Positions 2,796 to 60,872 of a DNA stretch of 64,000 bases are shown here, in pieces. Each line of letters starts with the position of its first letter. Positions within the stretch are counted from its first letter, which is position 1. A model generated the notes under the pieces. That model was not told the origin of the DNA, ran no database searches, and saw nothing but the letters and a program-made list of their open reading frames with translations. Origin of the DNA: Cristatella mucedo (lineage: Eukaryota > Bryozoa > Phylactolaemata > Cristatellidae); NCBI GenBank assembly GCA_009760855.2, contig WPIO01000123.1, forward strand, positions 1 through 64,000, read 5' to 3'. The position numbers were made by a program, and so were the translations under genes.

Positions 2796-5330
<2,535 letters not shown>

Positions 5331-10314: not shown

Positions 10315-11445
10315 GCCTATATTGCACTGTCTCGTTTTCACTGCTCAGCGGAAGACACTCAGCTGTGCCTTTGCTTTGATCCCTCCCAGCGATCGAGCGA
10401 AGAGTCGAATCCTCTCGTCTCCCTTGCTGCATTATATTAAGGACATCAGCACACGGGTGCAAAACCAAATTTTCTTAAGTTGAATGATGATAGAACCTAG
10501 AACCTGCTAGTTATGGGCAAACCAAGTGCGATTCAAAAATTGGAAAGGCTTGAGCTCACAATCGGCTCTGCAAGCATATCTCCTGTTGAATCATCACGAA
10601 ATATAGGTGTCATGTTCCGAACTGAACTTTCTTAAGACGACCACATCAGCTCCAAAATCAAGTCTGCCTACTTTCAGCAACATAGCTTTGCTAAAACACG
10701 GGCTTGTTTACGAAGAGATAATACATCTAAATTGGTCCATACATTTTTGAAATTCAGTCTTGACTTCTGTAACTCACTGTTTGCTCCTCTACCGGCATGT
10801 GCAATCAGGCAATTACAGCTGGTACAAAACTCTGCAGCTAAGCTTGTCTGTCCTGAGCATCACGTGTCTGTCCTGAGCCTCAGCACACCACTTCTTGCCG
10901 ACCTGCACAAGCTACCGGTCAAGCAACGCATCAAGTTCAAGGTTTCGCTGCTCACTTTTAGGTCATATCATTCTTCGGCTCCAGCCTACCTATCAGATCT
11001 ACTGCCCCGCCAGGCTTAGCATTGTACCACCAGCTTTTCGGAATATAACTGATTACCTACACCTCCTACAAACCTGAAATACTTTGGAGACCATGCATTT
11101 AGTTTGTGTGCACATAAATCCTGGAACTCACTCTCGACTTTCATTATGACACCCCCTGACTTGACCACATTTAAAAATAAACTTAAAACGCACCGATTAT
11201 CACAGTATTTACTGGGTCCCCGTGATTCGACCGATACGTGCTTGTGCTTGGTGACACAGGGACATGCTGCCACTAACCATACTTGCATGCTGACCCTGTC
11301 CATGTAACCCATAACAAAGCTATTCTTGTTGTTTAGTGAGCATGCCACAACTAACCATTCGATCGTGCTTCCTTTGCAGAGAACTTAAATCGCCTGGAAA
11401 GATATTGAGATCTGTGAGTGAGCTGTATCAAATGCATTATTATTA
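10315..11445 (+). mobile_element. LINE-A RT C-terminal half to 3' tail
   Basis: Reading starts at the RT catalytic region (GAAGACACTCAGCTGTGCCTTTGCTTTGATCC, so the YADD box is damaged). It passes through LDFCNSLFAPLPACAIRQLQLVQNSAAKLVC and LNSRLSSFIMT-like remains and ends at a degraded hairpin and ATTATTATTACT. Many stops and shifts show a dead copy. A duplicated CTGTCCTGAGCxTCxxC segment lies near 10850-10880. Confidence 0.8.
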
Positions 11446-15415: not shown

Positions 15416-16060
15416 CATAATAATATTAATAGTAGTGCACTTGATAAAGCTCCCTCAAAGAACTTAATCTTTCTCTAGGCGCTTTAAATTTGCTGCAAAG
15501 GGAAATGCAATCAAATGGCGAGTAAAATCATGATTGATAAACAAACGAAATGAATAACATGGTTAGGGGTGACATGCACAGGGTCAGCATACAAATGTGG
15601 TTAGTGGCAGCATGCACAGTGTCAGCACGCATAAGCACATCAAGGACGAATCACAGGGACCCACTAAATGCTGTCCTAAATGTGTTTTTAAATTCTTTTT
15701 AAATGTGGTCAGGTTAGGGGGTGTTTTGACGCAGGTCGGGAGGGAGTTCCAGGCTTTGGGAGCATACGAACTAAATGCACGGTCTCCGAATGATTTGAGG
15801 TTTGTACGAGGTATTTGTAGACTGTTGGATTCCGAAAAGCGGGTGGTACGATGCTTGGCCTGATGGGGGAGTATATTTGCGAGATAGACTGGAGCCAAAG
15901 AATGAAGTGACCTAAAAGTTAGCGACAAAACCTTGAAGTCAATCCATTGCTTGACTGGTAGCCACTGCCGGTCGGTGAGAAGTGGTGTAATGTAGCAACT
16001 GCGACGCTCACGACAGAAAAGCCTAACAGCGGATTTTTGCACCAGATGCTATCGCATGTT
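15416..16060 (-). mobile_element. LINE-A C-terminal end, minus strand
   Basis: The minus strand encodes SAVRLFCRERRSCYITPLLTD, WLPVKQWIDFKVLSLTFRSL, HSLAPVYLANILPHQAKHRT and FSSYAPKAWNSLPTCVKTPP in one 152-codon frame, followed by the 3' untranslated region, hairpin and ATT tail at 15416. Only the N-terminal part is missing. It is among the best-preserved copies. Confidence 0.9.
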
Positions 16061-24029: not shown

Positions 24030-24126
24030 TCTTTCCGCGTCCCCTTTCACTGTGCCTCTCTGTCTCTCTATCTCTGTCTCTCTTTCCCTCTATCTCTCTG
24101 TCTCTGTCTTTGTCTCTCTGTCTCTG

Positions 24127-24217
<91 letters not shown>

Positions 24218-24220
24218 CTC

Positions 24221-24292
<72 letters not shown>
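24030..24292 (+). repeat. (CT)n microsatellite
   Basis: It starts impure with GTCTCTCT units and becomes pure CT from about 24130, with one GTTTCTCTCACT interruption near 24212. The Ser/Leu and Arg/Glu frames here are artefacts. Confidence 0.95.
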
Positions 24293-29819: not shown

Positions 29820-30352
29820 AATTGACTTCAAGGTTTTGTCGCTCACTTTTAGGTCACTTCATTCTTTGGCTCCAGCCTATCTCTTAAATATACTCCCCCA
29901 TCAGGCCAAACATCGTACCACCCACTTTTCGGAATCCACCAGTCTACCAATATCTCGTACAAACCTCAAATTCTTTGGAGACCATGCATTTAGTTCGTAT
30001 GCTCCCAAAGCCTGGAACTCCCTCCCAACCTGCGTCAGAACATCCCCTGACCTGACCACATTTGAAAGGAACTTAAAAACACACCTATTTAGAACAGCAT
30101 TTAGTGGGTCCCTGTAATTCGTCCTTGATGTGCTTATGCGTGCTGACACGGCGCATGCTGCCACTAACCACATTTGCATGCTGACCCTGTGCATGTCACC
30201 CCCTAACCATGTTATTCATTTTGTTTGATTATCAAGCATGATTTTACTCACCATGTCAATTGCATTTTCCTTCGCAGCAAACGTAAAGCGCCTAGAGAGA
30301 GGTTAAGTTCTCTGAGGGCGCTATATCAAGTACATTATTATTATATTATTAT
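29820..30352 (+). mobile_element. LINE-A 3' end
   Basis: The frame from 29836 reads MSLTFRSLHSLAPAYLLNIL, PHQAKHRTTHFSESTSLPIS and SYAPKAWNSLPTCVRTSPDL without stops. A full 3' untranslated region, hairpin (GCGCCTAGAGAGAGGTTAAG) and (ATT)n follow. It is one of the youngest copies. Confidence 0.92.
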
Positions 30353-38834: not shown

Positions 38835-39957
38835 TGCCAAGCACAATCTAGGCTTTCACTTCTATGCAGATGGCACTCAGTTGTACCTTTGCTTTGATCT
38901 CTCACAGCCTTCAAGCACCTCAAATTCTCTAAACTCACTAGCTGCATGCATTTATGACATCCGCACATGGATGGCAGCAAATTTTCTAAAACTTAACGAT
39001 GATAAAACTAACTTACTAGTTATGGGCAAACCCAGTGTGATCCAGAGATTGGAAAGGCTGACTCTCAAAATTGGCTCTTCTAGCATATCTCCCGTTGAAT
39101 CAGCTCAAAATCTAGGTGTCATATTCCAAAGCGACCTCTCGTTAGACGACCACATCAGCTCCACAGTCAAATCCGCCTATTTTCAGCTTCATAACATTGC
39201 TAAAATTCAGGCCTGTTTAGATAAAAATACCACGTCCAAGTTAGTCCATGCATTCGTGACATCTCGTCTCGACTTCTGCAACTCACTGCTCACTGGCCTA
39301 CCAGCATGTGCGATCAGGCGATTGCAGCTGGTGCAAAACTCTGCAGCTAGGCTTGTCTGTCGTGAGCGTCGCAGTTTCCACATTACTCCACTTCTCGCCG
39401 ACCTGCACTAGCTACCAGTCAAGCAACGGATTGACTTCAAGGTTTTGTCGCTCACTTTTAGGTCCCTTCATTCTATGGCTCCAGCCTATCTGTCAGATAT
39501 ACTACCCCATCATGCTAAGCATCGTACCACCCGCTTTTCGGAATCCAACAGTCTAGAAATACCTCATACAAACCTTAAATCCTTTGGAGACCGTGCATTT
39601 AGTTCATACGCTCCCAAAGCCTGGAACTCCCTCCCAACCTGCCTCAGAACATCCCCTGACCTGACCACATTTAAAAGGAACCTAAAAACACACCTATTTA
39701 GGACAGCATTTAGTGGGTCCCTGTGATTCGTCCTTGATGTGCTTATGAGTGTTGACACTGTGCATGCTAACCACATTTGCATGCTGACCTTGTGCATGTC
39801 ACCCCTAACCATATTATTGTATTCGTTTGTTTTTTCAAGCATGATTTTACTTACCATTCAATTGCATTTCACTTTACAGCAAATGCAAAGCGCCTAGAGA
39901 GAGATTAAGTTCTCTGAGGGCGCTTTATCAAGTGAATTATTATTATTATTATCTGTC
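38835..39957 (+). mobile_element. LINE-A RT C-terminal half to tail, well preserved
   Basis: Frame: GFHFYADGTQLYLCFDLS (motif C, second Asp changed to Gly), LKLNDDKTNLLVMGKPSV, LGVIFQSDLSLDDHISSTVK, LDFCNSLLTGLPACAIRRLQ, NSAARLVCRERRSFHITPLL, one TAG at 39409, then KQRIDFKVLSLTFRSLHSMA and AWNSLPTCLRTSPDLTTFKR. The complete 3' untranslated region, hairpin and (ATT)n follow. Only two damaging changes are obvious. Confidence 0.93.
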
Positions 39958-40356: not shown

Positions 40357-40520
40357 CCGTACGAGAACACCGAAGGAGAACTAAATGTATAAGGTCCCCA
40401 TTTCGTTGAATGAATGTGCCCAGGCATAAGCGCCTGGGTTGAAGATTCTGGCGTACGGTCGTAGTTCAAAAACATTAGGCCGAGATGAACTGGCCGTGAA
40501 GGCACTGTCTGGCAGCAGAG
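40357..40520 (-). pseudogene. Discoidin-domain pseudogene, N-terminal domain exon
   Basis: Read on the minus strand, an acceptor (AAATTGCAG) precedes a phase-1 exon that begins ALLPDSAFTASS and continues to an F-x-FGVLVR end. It matches, position for position, the second coding exon of the discoidin gene at 53417-53583, including the same acceptor phase. There is an in-frame TAG where the intact gene has glutamine (Tyr-Val-Gln), and the expected donor is degraded (CGG followed by TAAAAC). The signal-peptide exon was looked for at higher coordinates and not found. A decayed paralogue is the best explanation. Confidence 0.72.
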
Positions 40521-40734
40521 CTGCAATTTGGAGTGGATTGGCAGATATCGCCCTAAGATGCGGTTCGTGAAGTTTAAACCTTGCAGTTGCTCAACAGCAT
40601 AATACCGGAAAGACCCGAAAGCATCTCTAATGATTTTAAAAATGCATCACCTGCGATGGTTACGGGTTGTCAGATAGTATGCCTAAACGCTGTTTTAGTC
40701 ATCAATGTACGTTGATTAAATTCAAGTCGTCAAT

Positions 40735-43405: not shown

Positions 43406-43795
43406 CATTATTCCTAAGTCAGGGGATGTCTTGACGCAAGTCTTAAGTGAGTTCCAGGTTTAAGAGCTTACAAACTAAAGGTACTGCTTCCAAACGATTT
43501 GTGCTTGGCACGAGGTATAGGGAAACGATTAGATTCCAAAAAGCGGCTGGTATTATGCTTAGCCTGGTGGGGGAGTAAATGTAAGCTGAATCCCAAGAAT
43601 GAAGGGACCTAAACATAAATGACAGAACCTTAAAGTCGATGTGCTGTTTGGCTGCGAGCCAAAACTGGACAGCTGGAAGTGGTATGATGGGGTAACTGCG
43701 GCCACATGACGGACAAGACCAGCTTCAGAGATTAGGACTAGCTGTAAGCACCCGATTCCACAACCCGGTAAACCAGCAAGTAGTGTAGTGTAATG
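43406..43795 (-). mobile_element. LINE-A C-terminal part, minus strand
   Basis: GGGGATGTCTTGACGCAAGTCTTAAG, TTCCAAAAAGCGGCTGGTATTATGCTTAGCCTGG and CCTTAAAGTCGATG mark the inverse of the C-terminal region. Many substitutions. Confidence 0.7.
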
Positions 43796-49696: not shown

Positions 49697-50117
49697 TGGC
49701 TGCTCAACTGCTTTAACTGCAACGTGCCACAATCCAGGTAAGACAGCTGAGGGCTTCAGGTTAGTGCAAGATCGCACTTCCTACAAGCGCCTGGTAAATA
49801 CTTGTTCTGTGTTTCTGAAAATTCTTTGCTACTAAAAAGAATTCTGCAACAAGAAAATAGCGAACTCACTTTGAATGCCTGGCGACCATTGAATTACAGC
49901 TACTTAACCTATCTGATACGCTAAGTCACTCCTGCTCTAGTGATATATTTTTGCAATTCAGCTTCCACTTCTGCGTTAAAGTCTTAATAATTTTAATTAA
50001 GATACTGTTTAAATAAGCATATCAAAGTAGTATTAAGTGAATTATGGTTACTGCTGACTTTTATTCTTCAGGCAAAGGTATTTGCGGAAAGAAGCTCGCG
50101 TTAGCCGACTGGCCATC

Positions 50118-53100
50118 ATGAAGTTTCCTCTGTTCACGGCGCTTCTCGTCGTATCAGCTTTCGCAGGAGAAAGCAAAGCGGTAACAATCAAATTGGTCGA
50201 TGGCAAAAATCCTCAGCATAAAATAATTAAACATAGAAGCTGCAATCAACCTCTAATAGGTAAGAAACGAATAAGTTTACGTGACGGCAAGCTAGAGCAT
50301 TGACTCAGCCGGTTGATCCAATTTTTTTCAGACGTAGTAATTCGAGTTTTAATAATATGCATGCAATGAAATCGAGCCTAGTAGTAACCTAATCGTGTGT
50401 AATGTTTCAGGAATTGGTGAAGTTAATTTTCAAGTTTTCTTGGAACATCTAAAAAAGTGGGAAACATAATGTTAACGGAACTTTGTTTTGTCACGACGTC
50501 GTTACTGTACATTTTTAAGAAGCAATCGGCTTATAAATATGAAAGATCACAAGAATTCGCTAATCTTTCAAGAATAACATTGAAATATGTACTGATAGAA
50601 GACAATGATAGAAATATCTGGTCCGTCTTAAATATATGTATATAATTAGACAAATCCATGACAGACAAACTAGTTTTGAATTTTGATAAAGCTTGTAGAC
50701 TTACGCATTAATTTTTGTTGAGGACTCTATCCGGCTGATTTCAGGTTTGTACGACGTATAGCTAATTTATTAGATGCAAAAAGGAGGTTGGTATGATTCC
50801 TGGCCTGGTGGATGAGTAGATATGACAGGTATTCGGGAGCGAAAACTGAAGGGACCTAGACGTGAAGTGACATAACCTTAAAGTCGATGCCTTGCTCGTC
50901 TTGGAGCCAGCGCAGGTGGGGAAGAAGTTGTATGATGCAGCCACTGCGACTCTCACGAACAGTCAATCGAACTAGCGGGATTCAGGTCCTCAAATGAATG
51001 AATTATAAAGTAAAACTTGCCGACGTTCGATCCCTCAGTTCATTAGCAGAAAATGCATCGGATTCACTATCGCCTTACTTCGCCACCAGCTCTAAAGCTT
51101 TTTATTTAGAGCGCGTACAGCTTCGGTAATGAAGCATCTGCTACCATAGGTTTTCGTCGTGCCAAAGAGGAGCATTGTTTTTTTGTTCCTTTGTATTTTT
51201 CGTGCTTAGCCGTCCTCGATCAATCGCAGCTAACAGCGGCCAGCGGTCCTATACACCGGTGGCCGTGAGTGGCGTAAGATTTCCATTTGCTAGCGTAGAC
51301 GTAGAGCGACAATCGTATTCTTTTGAATGGTCTTCCAAGTCTTTAATCGGAAAAGCTAGGAAAGGTAGTTTACTTCTTCGTTTGAGGTAGTAGCTGCTAA
51401 GCTCCTCAAAGCTGAAATTTCACACTTTTCCCTCTCTCTCTCTCTTATTATATTATATTATATTCTTATATTATTATTATATTATTGGCAAAATGTTATT
51501 AAGCTTTTCAGTTTGTGCCCTCTCTCTCTCTCTCTCTTATTATATTATATTATATTATTATATTATTATTATATTATTGGCAAAATGTTATTAAGCTTTT
51601 CAGTTTGTGCCCTCTCTCTCTCTTATTATATTATATTATATTATTATATTATTATTATATTATTGGCAAAATGGTATTTAGCTTTTCAGTTTGTGCTCTC
51701 TCTCTCTCTCTCTCCCTCTCTTATTATATTATATTATATTATTATATTATTATTATATTATTGGCAAAATGTTATTTAGTTTTTCAGTTTGTGCCCTCTC
51801 TCTCTCTCTCTCTTATTATATTATATTATTATATTATTATTATATTATTGGCAAAATGTTATTTAGTTTTTTCAGTTTGTGCTCTCTCTCTCTCTCTTAT
51901 TATATTATATTATATTATTATATTATTATTATATTATTGGCAAAATGTTATTTAGTTTTTCAGTTTGTGCCCTCTCTCTCTCTCTTATTATATTATATTA
52001 TATTATTATATTATTATTATATTATTGGCAAAATGTTATTTAGTTTTTTCAGTTTGTGCTCTCTCTCTCTCTCTCTCTCTTATTATATTATATTATATTA
52101 TTATATTATTATTATATTATTGGCAAAATGTTATTTAGTTTTTCAGTTTGTACCCTCTCTCTCTCTCTCTCTTATTATATTATATTATATTATATTATTA
52201 TATTATTATTATATTATTGGCAAAATGTTATTTAGTTTTTCAATTTGTGCCCTTTCTCTCGCTCTCTCTCTTATTATATTATATTATATTATTATATTAT
52301 TATTATATTATTGGCAAAATGTTATTTAGCTTTTCAGTTTGTGCTCTCTCTCTCTCTCTTATTATATTATATTATATTATTATATTATTATTATATTATT
52401 GGCAAAATGTTGTTTAGTTTTTTCAGTTTGTGCTCTCTCTCTCTCTCTCTCTCTTATTATATTATATTATATTATTATATTATTATTATATTATTGGCAA
52501 AATGTTATTTAGTTTTTCAGTTTGTACCCTCTCTCTCTCTCTCTCTTATTATATTATATTATATTATTATATTATTATTATATTATTGGCAAAATGTTAT
52601 TTAGTTTTTCAGTTTGTGCCCTCTCTCTCTCTCTCTTATTATATTATATTATATTATTATATTATTATTATATTATTGGCAAAATGTTATTTAGTTTTTC
52701 AGTTTGTGCCCTCTCTCTCTCTCTTATTATATTATATTATATTATTATATTATTATTATATTATTGGCAAAATGTTATTTAGTTTTTCAGTTTGTGCCCT
52801 CTCTCTCTCTCTCTCTCTTATTATATTATATTATATTATTATATTATTATTATATTATTGGCAAAATGTTATTTAGTTTTTCAGTTTGTGCCCTCTCTCT
52901 CTCTCTCTCTCTTATCATATTATATTATATTATTATATTATTATTATATTATTGGCAAAATGCTATTGTCAGAGCCATTCCAATGTTTAATTTGCACATC
53001 TGTCTTTATTTTTCCCTGAAAATACGTTACTTCCGTACGATCATATACGTAACTAGGCTTCCGTCTGTCTAGAAAGTTTACAGGTGAAACCAGAGGGTTA

Positions 53101-54215
53101 CCGGGTCGTTCGTCATGTCGTAATCTCACTCGTACATAATCACCCATTGCAGTTTTCTAAAGCCTCGCTTTATTGCAGTCGTTTCCCGTGCGGCTCAGTC
53201 CTAATTCAGCGTTTGATTCAGCTCAAAGTACGGCAGAGCTTAGTGTTCGTAATCCAAGGTCTGGTGTCATTCAAGTTCAGCTGTAATTGTTCATAATCCG
53301 AGGTCAGCTTTCACGCTCATTGTCCGTAACCGCCTGGCGTGACAGCTTAGACGTTTTAGCTGCACGAATTCAATCGCAGTATGGTAAGGGATTTACGCAA
53401 TATATTTGCATTTCAGCTCCACTGCCGGACAGTGCTTTTTCGGCGAATTCAGTTTGGCCCAATAACGAACATCATCTACCCCACAAACTGAAGATCTTCA
53501 ATGAAGGTTTGGACGGCTGGGCACCTGCTAAAGATCAGTACGCTACCTCCTACGTTCAAGTTAACTTTGGTGTCCCTCGGGAGGTGAGACTGCCAATAGT
53601 ATACTTATAGGGATTTCTTTTCAAGTGAACACATAGAGAGTTTAGGATTGATCATGGTGACCTTGATGACCTTGTAGATACGCAAGATTGCTACCCTCGG
53701 AAGGGTGTCGGATGAACAGTTTCTTACAAAATACAGGCTTTCCTTCAGTACGAATGGACTTGACTTTAAGAGCTACTCTCCTTTCGGAAAAAAACTGGTA
53801 AATAGATGCGGCTGTTCGATTCACTCATTGAGATCGTGCGAGTGTCAATTCTAGTAGAACCTATCTTTATGAGAAATGCTGAGTTTTCAATGCCAAAATT
53901 AGGCTTTCTCACGTGGCGAGAACTTGTAACACGAGCACGCAGTCAGAGCTCATTTCGAGTTTGGACCATTGCCTGAAATAATAGGGGAAACATTGAGCGT
54001 GTTTTATAGTGCCTTGTCATTGCTCACCTGCATCAGCTTGGCAGTGGCTAAGAAAACGTCTCCTTCTGTAGATACTAAAAGGAAACATAAACGCTTACAC
54101 GTGGAAGGAGAACGTACTGCCTCGACCGATACTTCGAGCTCGTGCTTTAAGAATTCATCCCTTGGGCATTTACAAATTTAATGTAGTGCTGAGAGCAGAA
54201 GCGTATGGCTGCTGA
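50118..54215 (+). CDS. Secreted single-domain F5/8 type C (discoidin) protein, 4 coding exons
   Basis: Coding exons are 50118-50259, 53417-53583, 53678-53797 and 54072-54215 (stop TGA 54213-54215), giving 190 residues. All junctions are GT/AG with matching phases (1, 0, 0). Residues 1-21 are a signal peptide (Lys2, then a hydrophobic run LFTALLVVSAFAG). The discoidin domain runs from Cys42 to Cys190, the usual disulphide-forming end cysteines. Family hallmarks read in order: PDSAFSANSVW, GWAP, YVQVNFG, KIATLGR, TKYRLSFSTNG, LPRPILRARALRIHP, and a terminal LRAEAYGC. Known discoidin domains bind carbohydrate, lipid or collagen outside the cell; this ligand is unknown. There is no membrane segment after the signal peptide, so I infer a secreted, lectin-like protein. 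The 3157-base intron 2 holds a LINE fragment and a large minisatellite. The gene structure is predicted by eye; domain identity is very likely. Confidence 0.88.
50740..50990 (-). mobile_element. LINE-A fragment in intron 2 of the discoidin gene
   Basis: TTTGTACGACGTATAGCTAATTTATTAGATGC, GAAGGGACCTAGACGTGAAG and CCTTAAAGTCGATGCC match the inverted C-terminal LINE-A region. It is heavily diverged. Confidence 0.65.
51430..52965 (+). repeat. 17-copy compound minisatellite in intron 2 of the discoidin gene
   Basis: Each unit of about 85-100 bases contains a (CT)n run, a TTA/TTATA-rich block, the anchor GGCAAAATGTTATTTAG and TTTTTCAGTTTGTGCC. The anchor GGCAAAATG occurs 17 times, from 51487 to about 52953. 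The anchor is nearly invariant (a few early units have ATTAAGC or GTATTTAGC), while the CT count varies and accounts for most of the length difference. The open frames on this stretch are translation artefacts of the repeat. Confidence 0.95.
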
Positions 54216-55317: not shown

Positions 55318-57180
55318 AACATTAACGGCAATCATATATTTGTATAGCACCCCAAAAGAGCTCATTCTCTTGCAAGGCACTCCAAGTACGGTGTAAAGAA
55401 CTCACAATAATAAAACTACCGCTGCAATAAGGCATCAGAGAACTCAGTTTCTTTCTAGGCACCTTAAAACTGGCTGCAAAGGAAGGAAGCTTGAATGGTT
55501 AGTGGTAGTATGCAGATTGATAACAAGCATAACATTATTAGAGGCGGCATGCACACGGTCAGAGTGGAAATTTAGTTATTGGCAGAACACAAACTGTCAG
55601 TTCTCATGAGCACACAGTATATTTAGTCGCATCATGTTAGCTAATTAATGATGCGATAAATAGATGCATTTTTAGGTTCTTTAAATGTGATCAAGTCATA
55701 AGATGTCGTGACGCAAGTCGGGAGTAAGTTCCAAGCATTTGAGGCATGCGAATTTCAGGCACGGTCTCCAAAGCTTTAGAGGTTGGTACGAAGTATATTT
55801 AAACCGTTGGATTCCAAAAAGTGATTGGTGCGATGCTTAGCCGGTTGAGGGAGTCGATATGATAGGTAGGCTTGAGCCAAAGAATAAAGGGACCTAAAAC
55901 TGAGTGACAGAACTTTAAAGTCGACGCTTTTCTTGACTTTTAACAAGTGCAGGTCAGCGAGAGGTGGTGTGATTTGGCAACTGCGACGGTCATGACAGAA
56001 AAGCCTTGCTGCAGAATTCAGCTCCAGCTGTAAGCGCCTGGGTGCACATGCCGGTAGACTAGCAATCATTGAGGTATGGAATTCGGGATGGGTTGTCACG
56101 AATGTACTGACAGATTCAGAGCGTGTATCCCTGTCTGAAAGGGCCTGAATTTTAGCAAGGCTGTGCAGCTAAAAGTAGGTAGACTTGACTGTGGAGCTGA
56201 TGTTGTCGTCTAAAGAAACGTCGGTTTGGTACAGAACAAGTAGATGTCGTGCAAAATCAACATATGCACGTAAAACAGGACATACCCTGGCATAGCCGAT
56301 TGAGGACGTTACCTTTACATTTTCACAATCTTACTTGGTTATTACTGGTAAGTTGTCTTTACGATCATTTAATTTCAGAAAGTTTGCAGTAATCCTTGTA
56401 TGGATGTCGAAAATACACGAAACGAGGGTGTTGGGAGAATTCTCCGTGCTAGAGGGCTGGGAGAGATTGAAGCAAAGGTACAACTGATTTTCATCGGCAT
56501 AGAATTTAAAAGCCTAGATTGTGCCCGGTAATCGCATCGGCAAGAACGAGAGTATTAACAGTGAAAAGTACTGGACCGAGCATAGAGCTCTGAGGTACCC
56601 CATACTTCAAAGGTTCCACGGATGATATGTGTCCTTTCAGATCAATACTAAACCATCTCCTAATAGTATAGGACCTGAACCGTTGAAGTGCCGAACCATT
56701 GATTATCAGGGGAAATGAGAGATGCTCAGTAAGGGCTCATTGACCAATAAAATCAAACGCTTCAGAAATATCGAGCAAAAAAAGCAGGGGTACTCTACTT
56801 CAGTCTGAATTGCTAAATTGTAAGTTTTATTTACGGGAAGCAATGCTGGCTCTGTGGAGTGATTGGCTCTGCTGCCAGACTGGAACTTACTACAAACATT
56901 GGTAGTTTCTACACATGACGTCAGCTTCACTGCCACGACTCGTTGCAATTTCTTTGGTCGGAACGGTAGAAGGGAGACTGGGCGGAAGTTGCTCAAGTTC
57001 TTATGGTTCCAGTGCTACTTTCTCGAATAGTCGTTTGACTAAAGCCGTGTTAAAAGGCACTGAGACATAACCTAAGGCCAATGACATATTTAAAATATTA
57101 TTTATGCATTCTAGCAGAAAATGTATATGCACCAATGAAGTGTGGAATTTTTTTCAACAACCTAATACCTAAAATACGAC
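55318..57180 (-). mobile_element. LINE-A RT to 3' end, minus strand
   Basis: On the minus strand from 57180 downward: NMSLALGYVSVPFNTALVKR, MSNFRPVSLLPFRPKKLQRV, CSKFQSGSRANHSTEPALLP (RT fingers), GVPQ-like motif B near 56600, FYADENQLYLCF (motif C, second Asp changed) near 56490, and RRLQLELNSAARLFCHDRRS near 56000, to the tail at 55415. A second tail fragment lies at 55318-55400. The second-longest LINE-A copy; several shifts make it inactive. Confidence 0.85.
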
Positions 57181-57195
57181 AGATTATTTAGCCTA

Positions 57196-57384
57196 GAGGT
57201 TTTAGGTAAGGTAGCGGAACAGTGAACTTTGTTTCCCTAGAGGTTCTACGGGGGTATAGAGGTTTTAGGTAAGGTAACGGAACAGTGAACTTTGTTTCCC
57301 TAGAGGTTCTACGGGGGTATAGAGGTTTTAGGTAAGGTAACGGAACAGTGAACTTTGTTTCCCTAGATGTTCTAAGGGGGGAAG
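57196..57384. repeat. Three tandem 63-base units
   Basis: GAGGTTTTAGGTAAGGTAAC + GGAACAGTGAACTTTGTTTC + CCTAGAGGTTCTACGGGGGT + ATA, starting at 57196, 57259 and 57322. The copies differ at few positions (the last has GATGTTCTAAGGGGG). The array ends where the next LINE-A begins. Confidence 0.95.
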
Positions 57385-57945
57385 AAAATGATACAGCTCA
57401 GTTCTGCTAGTTATAAGGGCTCCGTGCTAGGGCCGGCTCTTTTCACGGTTTATAATCTTCCTCTTGCTGATGTGGTTGCCAAGCACAATCTAGGCTTTCA
57501 CTTTCATGCAGATGACACTCAGTTGTACCTTTGCTTTGATCCCTCCCAGAGTTCGAGCACCTCAAATGATCTCAACTCACTTGCTGCATGTATTGATGAC
57601 ATCCGCACATGGATGGCAGCAAATTCTCTAAAACTAAACGATGATAAAACGAACTTACTTGTTATGGGAAAACCCAGTGTAATTCAGAAAATGGAAAGGC
57701 TGACGCTCAAAATTGGCTCTGCCAGCATAACTCCTGCTGCTGAATCAGCAAAAAATCTAGGTGTCATGTTTCAAAGCGACCTCTCGTTAGACGACCATAT
57801 CAGCTCCACAGTCAAATCTGCCTACTTTCAGCTATATAGCATTGCTAAAATTTAGGCTTGTTTAGATAAGGATACCACGTCCAAGTTGGTCCATGCATTC
57901 GTGAAATTCCGTCTCGACTTCGGCAACTCACTGCTTACTGGCCTA
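57385..57945 (+). mobile_element. LINE-A RT fragment, well preserved (left arm of fold-back)
   Basis: A 156-codon frame (57388-57855) reads SVLGPALFTVYNLPLADVVA (motif B end), KHNLGFHFHADDTQLYLCFD (motif C intact), AANSLKLNDDKTNLLVMGKP and NLGVMFQSDLSLDDHISSTV. After one stop it continues with VHAFVKFRLDFGNSLLTGLP and ends abruptly at the fold-back point. Confidence 0.92.
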
Positions 57946-58905: not shown

Positions 58906-59535
58906 TGAGCAATATGAAGTGCATTATTATTATCGTTACTATTACTATGTGAGTTTTCAAATGGTTTGCCACTATTCGTTCCAAGATAGATTTTTTATAG
59001 AAACAATAGAAAGGATATTGGGTGGAAGTTCCTATATTTTATTCTAGTGTCGCTTTGTTGAGTAGTGGCCCTACTGCAGCCTTATTGAAATTTGCAAGGA
59101 CATGACCTGAGGCTAATGACATGTTTATTTTGTTATTTATGCATTGCAGCAGCAAATATATACGTATTTAAGAAGTTTGGAAGCGACCTCCACAACCTAG
59201 AACCTGCAAGCCAAATTTTTCTTTTATTTGTGGCCTTTAAGTGAACAAATAGAGCACTTACTGTATGTCCGCGGAGAATGTAACACGAGGAGGACGAAAC
59301 GTGTGCAACGGTTTTGCTTGTTATGATGGAAATAACCTATTGCAAGTCTTATGACTTAGTCTCAGAATTAGCTCTGCACCCATCGTCAATCTGCATCGTC
59401 AATCAGCAAAAGATATCCATAGTCAAATTGGTATTTTTTATCTAGCCTGAAGACATATTAATCACCGTCCGCTGTTTTCGATAGCTCTGGTAAAATATAG
59501 CTAGTAACAATAACACGTTTGTATGGCACCCTCGG

Positions 59536-60872
59536 AGATCGTGTAAACAATGACATTCTACGTGGCAACGACGACGGGAATGTCACTGCCCTAGCTCTGC
59601 TAGATCTGTCTGCTGCCATCGACACCATTGATCACCAAGTTCTGCTTGAACGATTGAGAACGACGATCGGTGTGGCTGACGAAGCACTGGCGTGGTTTAA
59701 ATCATACTTGTCTGATCGTGTTCAATCCGTGTCATGTGGGGGTCAGGTCTCACACACGAGAAGGGTCACCTGTGGAGTCCCTCAAGGGTCAGTACTTGGT
59801 CCCTTGCTGTTCTCCATTTATACACAACCTCTGGGAAAAGTGATTAAGGCACATGGAATAGGATATCGCTTCTATGCTGACGCTACTCACTTGCATTTGT
59901 TATTCAAACCGTCGGAATCTGCGGCAGCAACTGAAAAACTGAATGCTTGCTTTGCCGATATTCGATCCTGGATGTCGGAAAACTTCCTGAAATTAAATGA
60001 TGATAAAACCAAACTGCTGCTCATAGGACACCCTAAGCGTATCGCTGGATTAAAAGGCTTTGAGTTCAAATAGGTGATGCTATTGTGCGACCTTCACCAT
60101 GTGCTCGAAATTTAGGTGTCGTGTTTGTCAGCTGCCTCAATTTCAAAAGCTTCATTCAGAAGACTGCTTCTACAGCTAGCCATCTCATCCGATCCCTATC
60201 CAAAAATAGGAGCTGTCTCCCACGGGGGCTTGCAAAAAATTTAACTAGCTCTTTAGTTCTGTCTCGGCTTGATTATTGTAATTCCCTTTTGGCTGGGCTG
60301 CCAAAGAAAGCCACTACAGCCGACAATCAATATGGCTGCAAGGCTACTCTTCAAGTCCCAGCGGTTTGAGCACGTGTCTCCTTTGCTGAAAGAGCTGGGA
60401 TGATCGCCGGTTGAGCAAAGGATACAGAGCAAAGTTGAACCACAAGGCCCGCCACGGCTTGGCTCCTTCGTACCTAGCTGAACTTCTGCATCAGTGTAAG
60501 CCTGTTCGCGCCCTCAGGTGCTGTGGGACAATAAATTAGCTGTCCGATTCCTCCCCTTAAAGACAGTTGGCGACAGAAGCTTTAGCTCTGCAGGTTCTAG
60601 ACTGTGGAACTCGCTTCCACAACTCTTACGCAACGACAACTACTCTCCTACTGCCGACTATGGCACATCCTTTTCAGTGGTCCTGAGCTGCTACTTCTAT
60701 GCTACTCACTACGTCAACTGCTCTCCTGACTCAGCTATGCTTCCCACTTTCTCTTTGTTGCGTGAGACGATGTCTGTTGGCTACCGAATGCGTACCGAAA
60801 GCCGCTTAGGCTGTGATCGGGCTATACAAAACTCTCCTGCATAACACCCACGTGGTCTTTATGACTTTGTAT
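59536..60872 (+). mobile_element. LINE-B RT and C-terminus, longest LINE-B copy
   Basis: The frame 59519-60073 reads LALLDLSAAIDTIDHQVLLE (motif A), TCGVPQGSVLGPLLFSIYT (motif B), GYRFYADATHLHLLF (motif C with Ala in place of the second catalytic Asp) and LKLNDDKTKLLLIG (motif D), then a stop. After shifts it continues ARNLGVVFVSCLNFKSFI, LVLSRLDYCNSLLAGLPKK and, from 60518, a 108-codon frame to the end of the protein. The loss of the catalytic Asp and the breaks show it is inactive. It is absent from the paralogous site near 34660, so it inserted after (or was deleted from) one copy. Confidence 0.9.

Follow-up and report, generated by a model that had tools for sequence, protein, structure and literature searches.

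An intronic minisatellite with repeated acceptor-like motifs in Cristatella mucedo, compared with described arrays that carry splice signals

Described arrays and the present locus

Minisatellite-like arrays in which many units carry AG/GT signals are described, in passages of a report on amphioxus (PMC3087553), as 'mirages' of the globin genes BflGb6 and BflGb9 and of Adh3: their boundary units are stated there to be excluded from homogenisation, and RT-PCR together with earlier Adh3 data indicated that the arrays seemingly do not interfere with regular splicing. The unit of the ABCA7 intron 18 VNTR carries a donor dinucleotide and its array adjoins an exon; according to excerpts of PMC5954066, retention of one unit was seen in transcripts, and skipping of exon 19 rises with array length. 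The minisatellite of IFI6 (6-16) contains multiple donor sites that are reported to be used in mRNA (Turri et al. 1995, as cited in PMC4526556). VNTR6-1, a tandem array in intron 6 of TERT, is reported to affect the splicing of an exon downstream of it, and the relevant portion of PMC11830802 proposes that it acts via an expandable G-quadruplex. Our literature searches for intronic minisatellites whose units carry splice acceptors found none, a result that does not establish their absence in print.

The array considered here lies in the window, the first 64,000 bases of a contig (C26) of the 572-Mb genome of the bryozoan Cristatella mucedo, where it occupies, on the sense strand, the intron between an ATG-bearing signal-peptide exon and a discoidin-like exon. 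It resembles the amphioxus mirages in being a minisatellite in an animal gene with units that bear splice-signal look-alikes. However, whereas the units of mirages copy a true exon-intron boundary, according to the same passages (PMC3087553), the present unit is no closer to its flanking boundaries than are many shuffled sequences. Comparison with 200 bp at the acceptor gave a best local score that was equalled by 36 of 200 shuffles and that lay within the exon (53448), and on the donor side the best local score was equalled by 166 of 200 shuffles; a mirage-type duplication was consequently rejected. The present array and the ABCA7 VNTR are both intronic with a splice-site dinucleotide in the unit, although that of ABCA7 is described as a donor (excerpts of PMC5954066) and the present motif is acceptor-like. 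Likewise, the units of IFI6 carry splice-site sequence, but as donors reported to be used (Turri et al. 1995, as cited in PMC4526556), while those described here are acceptor look-alikes. With TERT VNTR6-1 the array shares its position upstream of an exon, but the AT/CT-rich composition of its unit differs from a repeat for which a G-quadruplex is proposed (PMC11830802, in the portion cited above).

The reading preferred here, to which we assign a probability of about 0.85, is that the array is an intronic minisatellite, specific to its lineage, that has no function in splicing; on present evidence it appears to behave like a neutral minisatellite. As it stands, the array is one of several tandem arrays in the window and matters little, though it illustrates that splice-site look-alikes can multiply, with no selection for them, when a T-rich unit is duplicated in tandem. 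If its sites were in fact used, it would stand beside the IFI6 and ABCA7 arrays, which bear donors, as their counterpart for acceptors.

Host gene, structure of the array and mode of growth

The features of the locus are collected in Table 1, in which the putative start of the first exon is placed by an acceptor-like CAG at 50071. The protein predicted from the two joined exons matched no Pfam family and gave a weak PDB match (E 0.0049) to the discoidin domain of CASPR2, on account of which the second exon is termed discoidin-like. A genome search with the joined exons yielded 14 exon-like matches, including the two exons of the query itself. Both exons are present in a paralogue on another contig, C99 (43% over 47 residues and 65% over 54 residues), with the acceptor at the identical position (CAG/CTCCGCTGCCGGACAG). 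The acceptor at 53416 is supported by this conservation, since C99 has both exons, the same acceptor position and a homologous intron. Some 12 kb downstream, at C26:65886-66053 on the same strand (L033, L048), another discoidin-like exon is ~50% identical to 53417-53583 and may be either a tandem paralogue or a second domain. On the − strand of the window at 40366-40530, the discoidin-like exon is degenerate and interrupted by one stop codon; it is probably a pseudogene fragment and was also recovered as a DNA match of exon 53417-53583.

Table 1. Coordinates, within the window, of the array and of the features that surround it
Feature	Position	Strand	Remark
ATG-bearing exon, signal-peptide-like at its start (MKFPLFTALLVVSAFA...)	50072..50259	+	donor G/GTAAGA
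Array-bearing intron	50260..53416	+	
5' intron flank, 66% identity to C99 paralogous intron	51063..51406	+	stops 19 bases short of array
Minisatellite array, 17 CT+AT blocks, 16 complete anchors	51426..52967	+	TRF and unit parsing
Three divergent edge units, anchor TTAAGCTTTTCAG (two) or GTATTTAGCTTTTCAG (one)	51426..51696	+	
Stretch of ~2.5 units with a second copy 374 bp (4 units) further downstream	51957..52193	+	<=2 mismatches
Anchor with CAA in place of CAG	52219..52250	+	
Truncated final unit, comprising a CT run, an AT block with a single change and the anchor's first 14 bases	52892..52967	+	
3' flank, weak similarity to C99 intron just past LINE cluster	52982..53078	+	3/500 shuffles score as well
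Next exon, discoidin-like	53417..53583	+	acceptor position common to C99/C584 paralogue

The tandem array reported in the initial annotation proved to be real: TRF called it at 51432-52967 (period 94, 16.8 copies, 92% matches), and parsing of the head-to-tail units (period ~92 bp) gave 17 blocks, each comprising a CT run plus an AT block, with 16 complete anchors and a truncated 17th. Each unit begins, as had been stated, with a CT run of variable length (12-24 bases), followed by the AT block (42 bases in 15 of 17 copies) and then the 32-base anchor GGCAAAATGTTATTTAGTTTTTCAGTTTGTGC, complete units being 86-98 bp long. Such repetition is far beyond chance, and head-to-tail units within the range of ~10-100 bp, with high identity, place the array among the minisatellites. 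The distance of about 450 bases previously given between array and acceptor holds for the end of the array (449 bases upstream of 53416); the last regular CAG, at 52884, lies 532 bases before the acceptor.

Open reading frames cross the array. Within the window ARAGORN (bacterial code) gave no tRNA. A structured RNA was rejected: no match in the window was obtained with Rfam at gathering score, and when the fold of two units was compared with that of 200 shuffles, 180 of the latter did as well or better. A different minisatellite (22-bp unit, ~24 copies) lies a few kb past the window at C26:66434-66950 (L039 6434-6950), and ~2 kb of the window at 3150-5286 is very pyrimidine-rich (TC) on the + strand and strongly skewed in both GC and AT.

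Every unit had been said to end in TTTAGTTTTTCAG; the exact sequence is found in only eight of the 16 complete anchors, or in 11 with one extra T allowed, while with the loosest pattern a CAG is kept in 15 and replaced by CAA in the other. Variants of the anchor comprise an extra T (three), a C within the T run (four) and TTAAG (two); the last is restricted to the first two units at the 5' edge, and the C to the first three units and unit 10. CT runs differ in even steps, the first run excepted, and the mean divergence between units amounts to 1.9 events per 74 bases. Internal repeats occur at a distance of 374 bp (155 bp exact; 237 bp with <=2 mismatches) and of 739 bp (167 bp exact), and blocks of several units have therefore been copied. 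The array is a local minisatellite, grown partly by multi-unit duplication. Variation and block-copying of this pattern are usual in minisatellites.

Most probably, a T-rich stretch of ~92 bp containing a (CT)n microsatellite became tandemly duplicated within the intron. Either unequal exchange or replication slippage would then have enlarged the array, in part by several units at once, and the CT run would have changed length by two-base steps. By analogy with the amphioxus mirages, the real acceptor at 53416 would normally be used in most transcripts.

Conservation and strength of the acceptor-like motif

Near-invariance of the motif had been taken as a possible sign of constraint. The observation stands relative to the CT run and fails relative to the AT block, which is the least variable part of the unit: 13 of 17 AT blocks are identical to consensus as against six of 16 anchors. 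The anchor accumulated 11 substitutions and three indels (14 events in 512 cells), and the AT block two substitutions and two indels (four events in 714 cells), a difference with a Fisher p of 0.003 on cells that are non-independent; counted as distinct variants, seven of 32 anchor positions and four of 42 AT-block positions are affected (p 0.19). Of six distinct substitutions in the anchor, one abolishes the CAG. The comparison of substitution rates had been set beforehand as one of two parts of the refutation, and anchor divergence was not below that of the AT block; constraint on the acceptor motif is therefore not supported. The anchor is at least not better conserved than the AT block, and the motif shows no sign of special preservation.

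Splice sites were scored with 3' splice-site and donor matrices of approximate human frequencies, possibly unsuited to this organism, to which all splice-site scores in bits given here refer. The 15 regular array sites reached 3.61-8.56 bits (two at 3.61), the three best (8.06-8.56) belonging to the extra-T units; the CAG at the truncated end of the array scored -0.78, and the median of all 16 was 5.98. The true acceptor at 53416, with 3.46 bits, lies below every regular array site, and the acceptor-like site of the preceding exon scored 9.63. Of seven homologous exon starts other than the window's own, five show an AG where the acceptor is expected or close to it, with scores of 4.43 (L030), 2.25 (L033), 1.55 (L032), -1.07 (L031, a TAG) and 5.28 (L036, a probable acceptor 16 bases from the match start), and two with TGA codons inside the match (L034, L035) have no AG at the expected place. 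The matrix may underrate true sites of this organism, since the acceptors of these paralogous exons also score low (-1.07 to 5.28).

The description of the motif as a good acceptor look-alike survives insofar as the 15 regular sites outscore the true acceptor, but such sites are matched by shuffled sequence: when one typical unit was dinucleotide-shuffled 2000 times, 1092 of the resulting sequences contained a site as good as its best, at a threshold of 5.98 bits only, the three extra-T units scoring higher than this. Random 94-bp stretches contained a site at least equal to that of the typical unit in 385 of 2000 cases, and 342 of 8968 AGs in the window outside the array reached the array median. 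The look-alike sites are most simply a chance by-product of T-rich composition.

It is improbable, in our judgement, that the array serves as a field of decoy acceptors in which 15 CAGs compete with a weak true acceptor, part of the transcripts are spliced into the array and destroyed on account of early stops, and array length tunes output. Such a role would be consistent with changes in splicing that have been tied to intronic array length in the human genes ABCA7 (excerpts of PMC5954066) and TERT (a portion of PMC11830802). As all 15 regular sites outscore the true acceptor, use of some of them is plausible. No donor above 4 bits was detected inside the array; the cryptic donors 3' of it score 7.3 bits (at 53083) and 9.2 bits (at 53383), and all 16 array CAGs tested (15 regular and the one at the truncated end) lead to an in-frame stop, via either cryptic donor or by read-through to 53583, so that any use of an array site would probably be non-productive. 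Against such a role stand the absence of selective preservation of the motif, the equally good sites expected from composition, and at least six non-array AGs, among those listed for the sense strand of the same intron, that reach the array median. Moreover, each regular site has a further AG 8-9 bases upstream of its final AG and a T as first exon base, and the paralogous intron is without an array.

More improbable still is a length-variable splicing rheostat, by which 15 seemingly stronger acceptors together with CU runs would divert transcripts and array length would set the amount of secreted protein, differing between individuals. More generally, splicing effects of the array are possible.

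CU-rich tracts are PTB sites, and the 17 CU runs might gather a PTB-like protein and so alter how often the following exon is included, with no part played by the acceptor motifs. The array does contain 110 overlapping CTCTCT words, compared with none in the rest of the intron, but the CT runs vary in length from 12 to 24 bases, CT-rich repeats also occur at 24056-24292 and 3150-5286 of the window, and there are only two overlapping CTCTCT words in the C99 intron; this mode of action we regard as highly improbable.

The array-free paralogous intron and occurrence in the genome

Homology between the array-bearing intron and its C99 counterpart extends from the alignable intron start through 50522-50730 (71%) to the 5' flank of the array (Table 1), past which C99 runs into LINE sequence; the 97-base stretch of the 3' flank has its weak C99 counterpart beyond that LINE cluster. 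TRF applied to the paralogous stretches of C99 and C584 (L037, L038) detected other tandem repeats only and no such array, and in the C99 intron (6354 bases) neither exact GGCAAAATG nor TTATTATATTATATT occurs and CT runs do not exceed eight bases. A constrained splicing element, the motif of which would be expected in the paralogous intron, was rejected on the basis of the absence of exact GGCAAAATG and of a best anchor alignment of 24/64 (22-25/64 across the C99 and C584 stretches). Identity of 99.6% over 1945 bases indicates that C584 is probably the other haplotype of C99, or a recent copy. As the LINE cluster fills the equivalent interval, an ancestral seed could have been present in C99 and overwritten.

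A search of the 572-Mb genome with a gapless 34-base anchor pattern (<=3 mismatches), which misses three array anchors carrying an extra T, gave 13 matches, all within the array, and the reversed pattern, used as a control, gave none. A two-unit query found 21 matches, ten in the array and 11 outside; nine of the latter, inspected in six stretches (L042-L047), proved to be AT-rich repeats with best anchor alignments of 15-26/64 and no CT run longer than six bases in those stretches, two (on C33 and at C687:9224757) having been left out of the inspection. The assembly yielded no further copy of the array locus, the flanks matching only themselves at full identity, and the tandem repeats at three further loci (L039-L041) are different arrays. 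A recently dispersed element is refuted at the sensitivity of <=3 mismatches. The recent expansion initially suggested is supported by the low divergence between units, the block copies, the uniqueness of the array in the genome and the array-free paralogous intron.

That the array belongs to a dispersed transposable element which carries tandem repeats internally is the least probable reading considered: the window is rich in LINE fragments, one of which lies upstream in the same intron (50730-50966), and the intron flanks have weak matches elsewhere, but the anchor pattern is confined to the array, the distant two-unit matches are AT-rich repeats where inspected, and the match of the 5' flank is the paralogous gene. 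An old single insertion of a transposable element as the source of the array is possible. The 3' intron flank at 53101-53269 is 70-74% alike to two places on C497 (L025, L026), 17 kb apart, at which no match to the neighbouring exons occurs within 1.5 kb; this similarity perhaps reflects an unnamed old repeat.

Fragments resembling the 3' coding part of LINEs occur in the window, in addition to that in the intron, at 10881-11080, 15785-16013, 29821-29971, 39353-39581, 43496-43700, 55780-55995 and elsewhere, on both strands and 67-75% alike. RVT_1 matches were recorded at 59501-60070 (65 bits) and, slightly under the Pfam cut-off, at 57376-57852 (29 bits).

A mitochondrial COX1 match on C688 is open throughout with TGA read as Trp, and AGA/AGG as Ser and ATA as Met give residues that we take to be fitting, as judged from known COX1 sequences; this code points to a bilaterian other than a vertebrate. 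ARAGORN (bacterial code) detected no tRNA in two mitochondrial stretches. COX1 fragments outside C688 (C166:4375626-4376390, C83:2826-3735, C549:2641741-2642010 and C299:634220-634540) contain internal TGA codons, some also TAA or TAG, and are likely to be nuclear copies of mitochondrial DNA.
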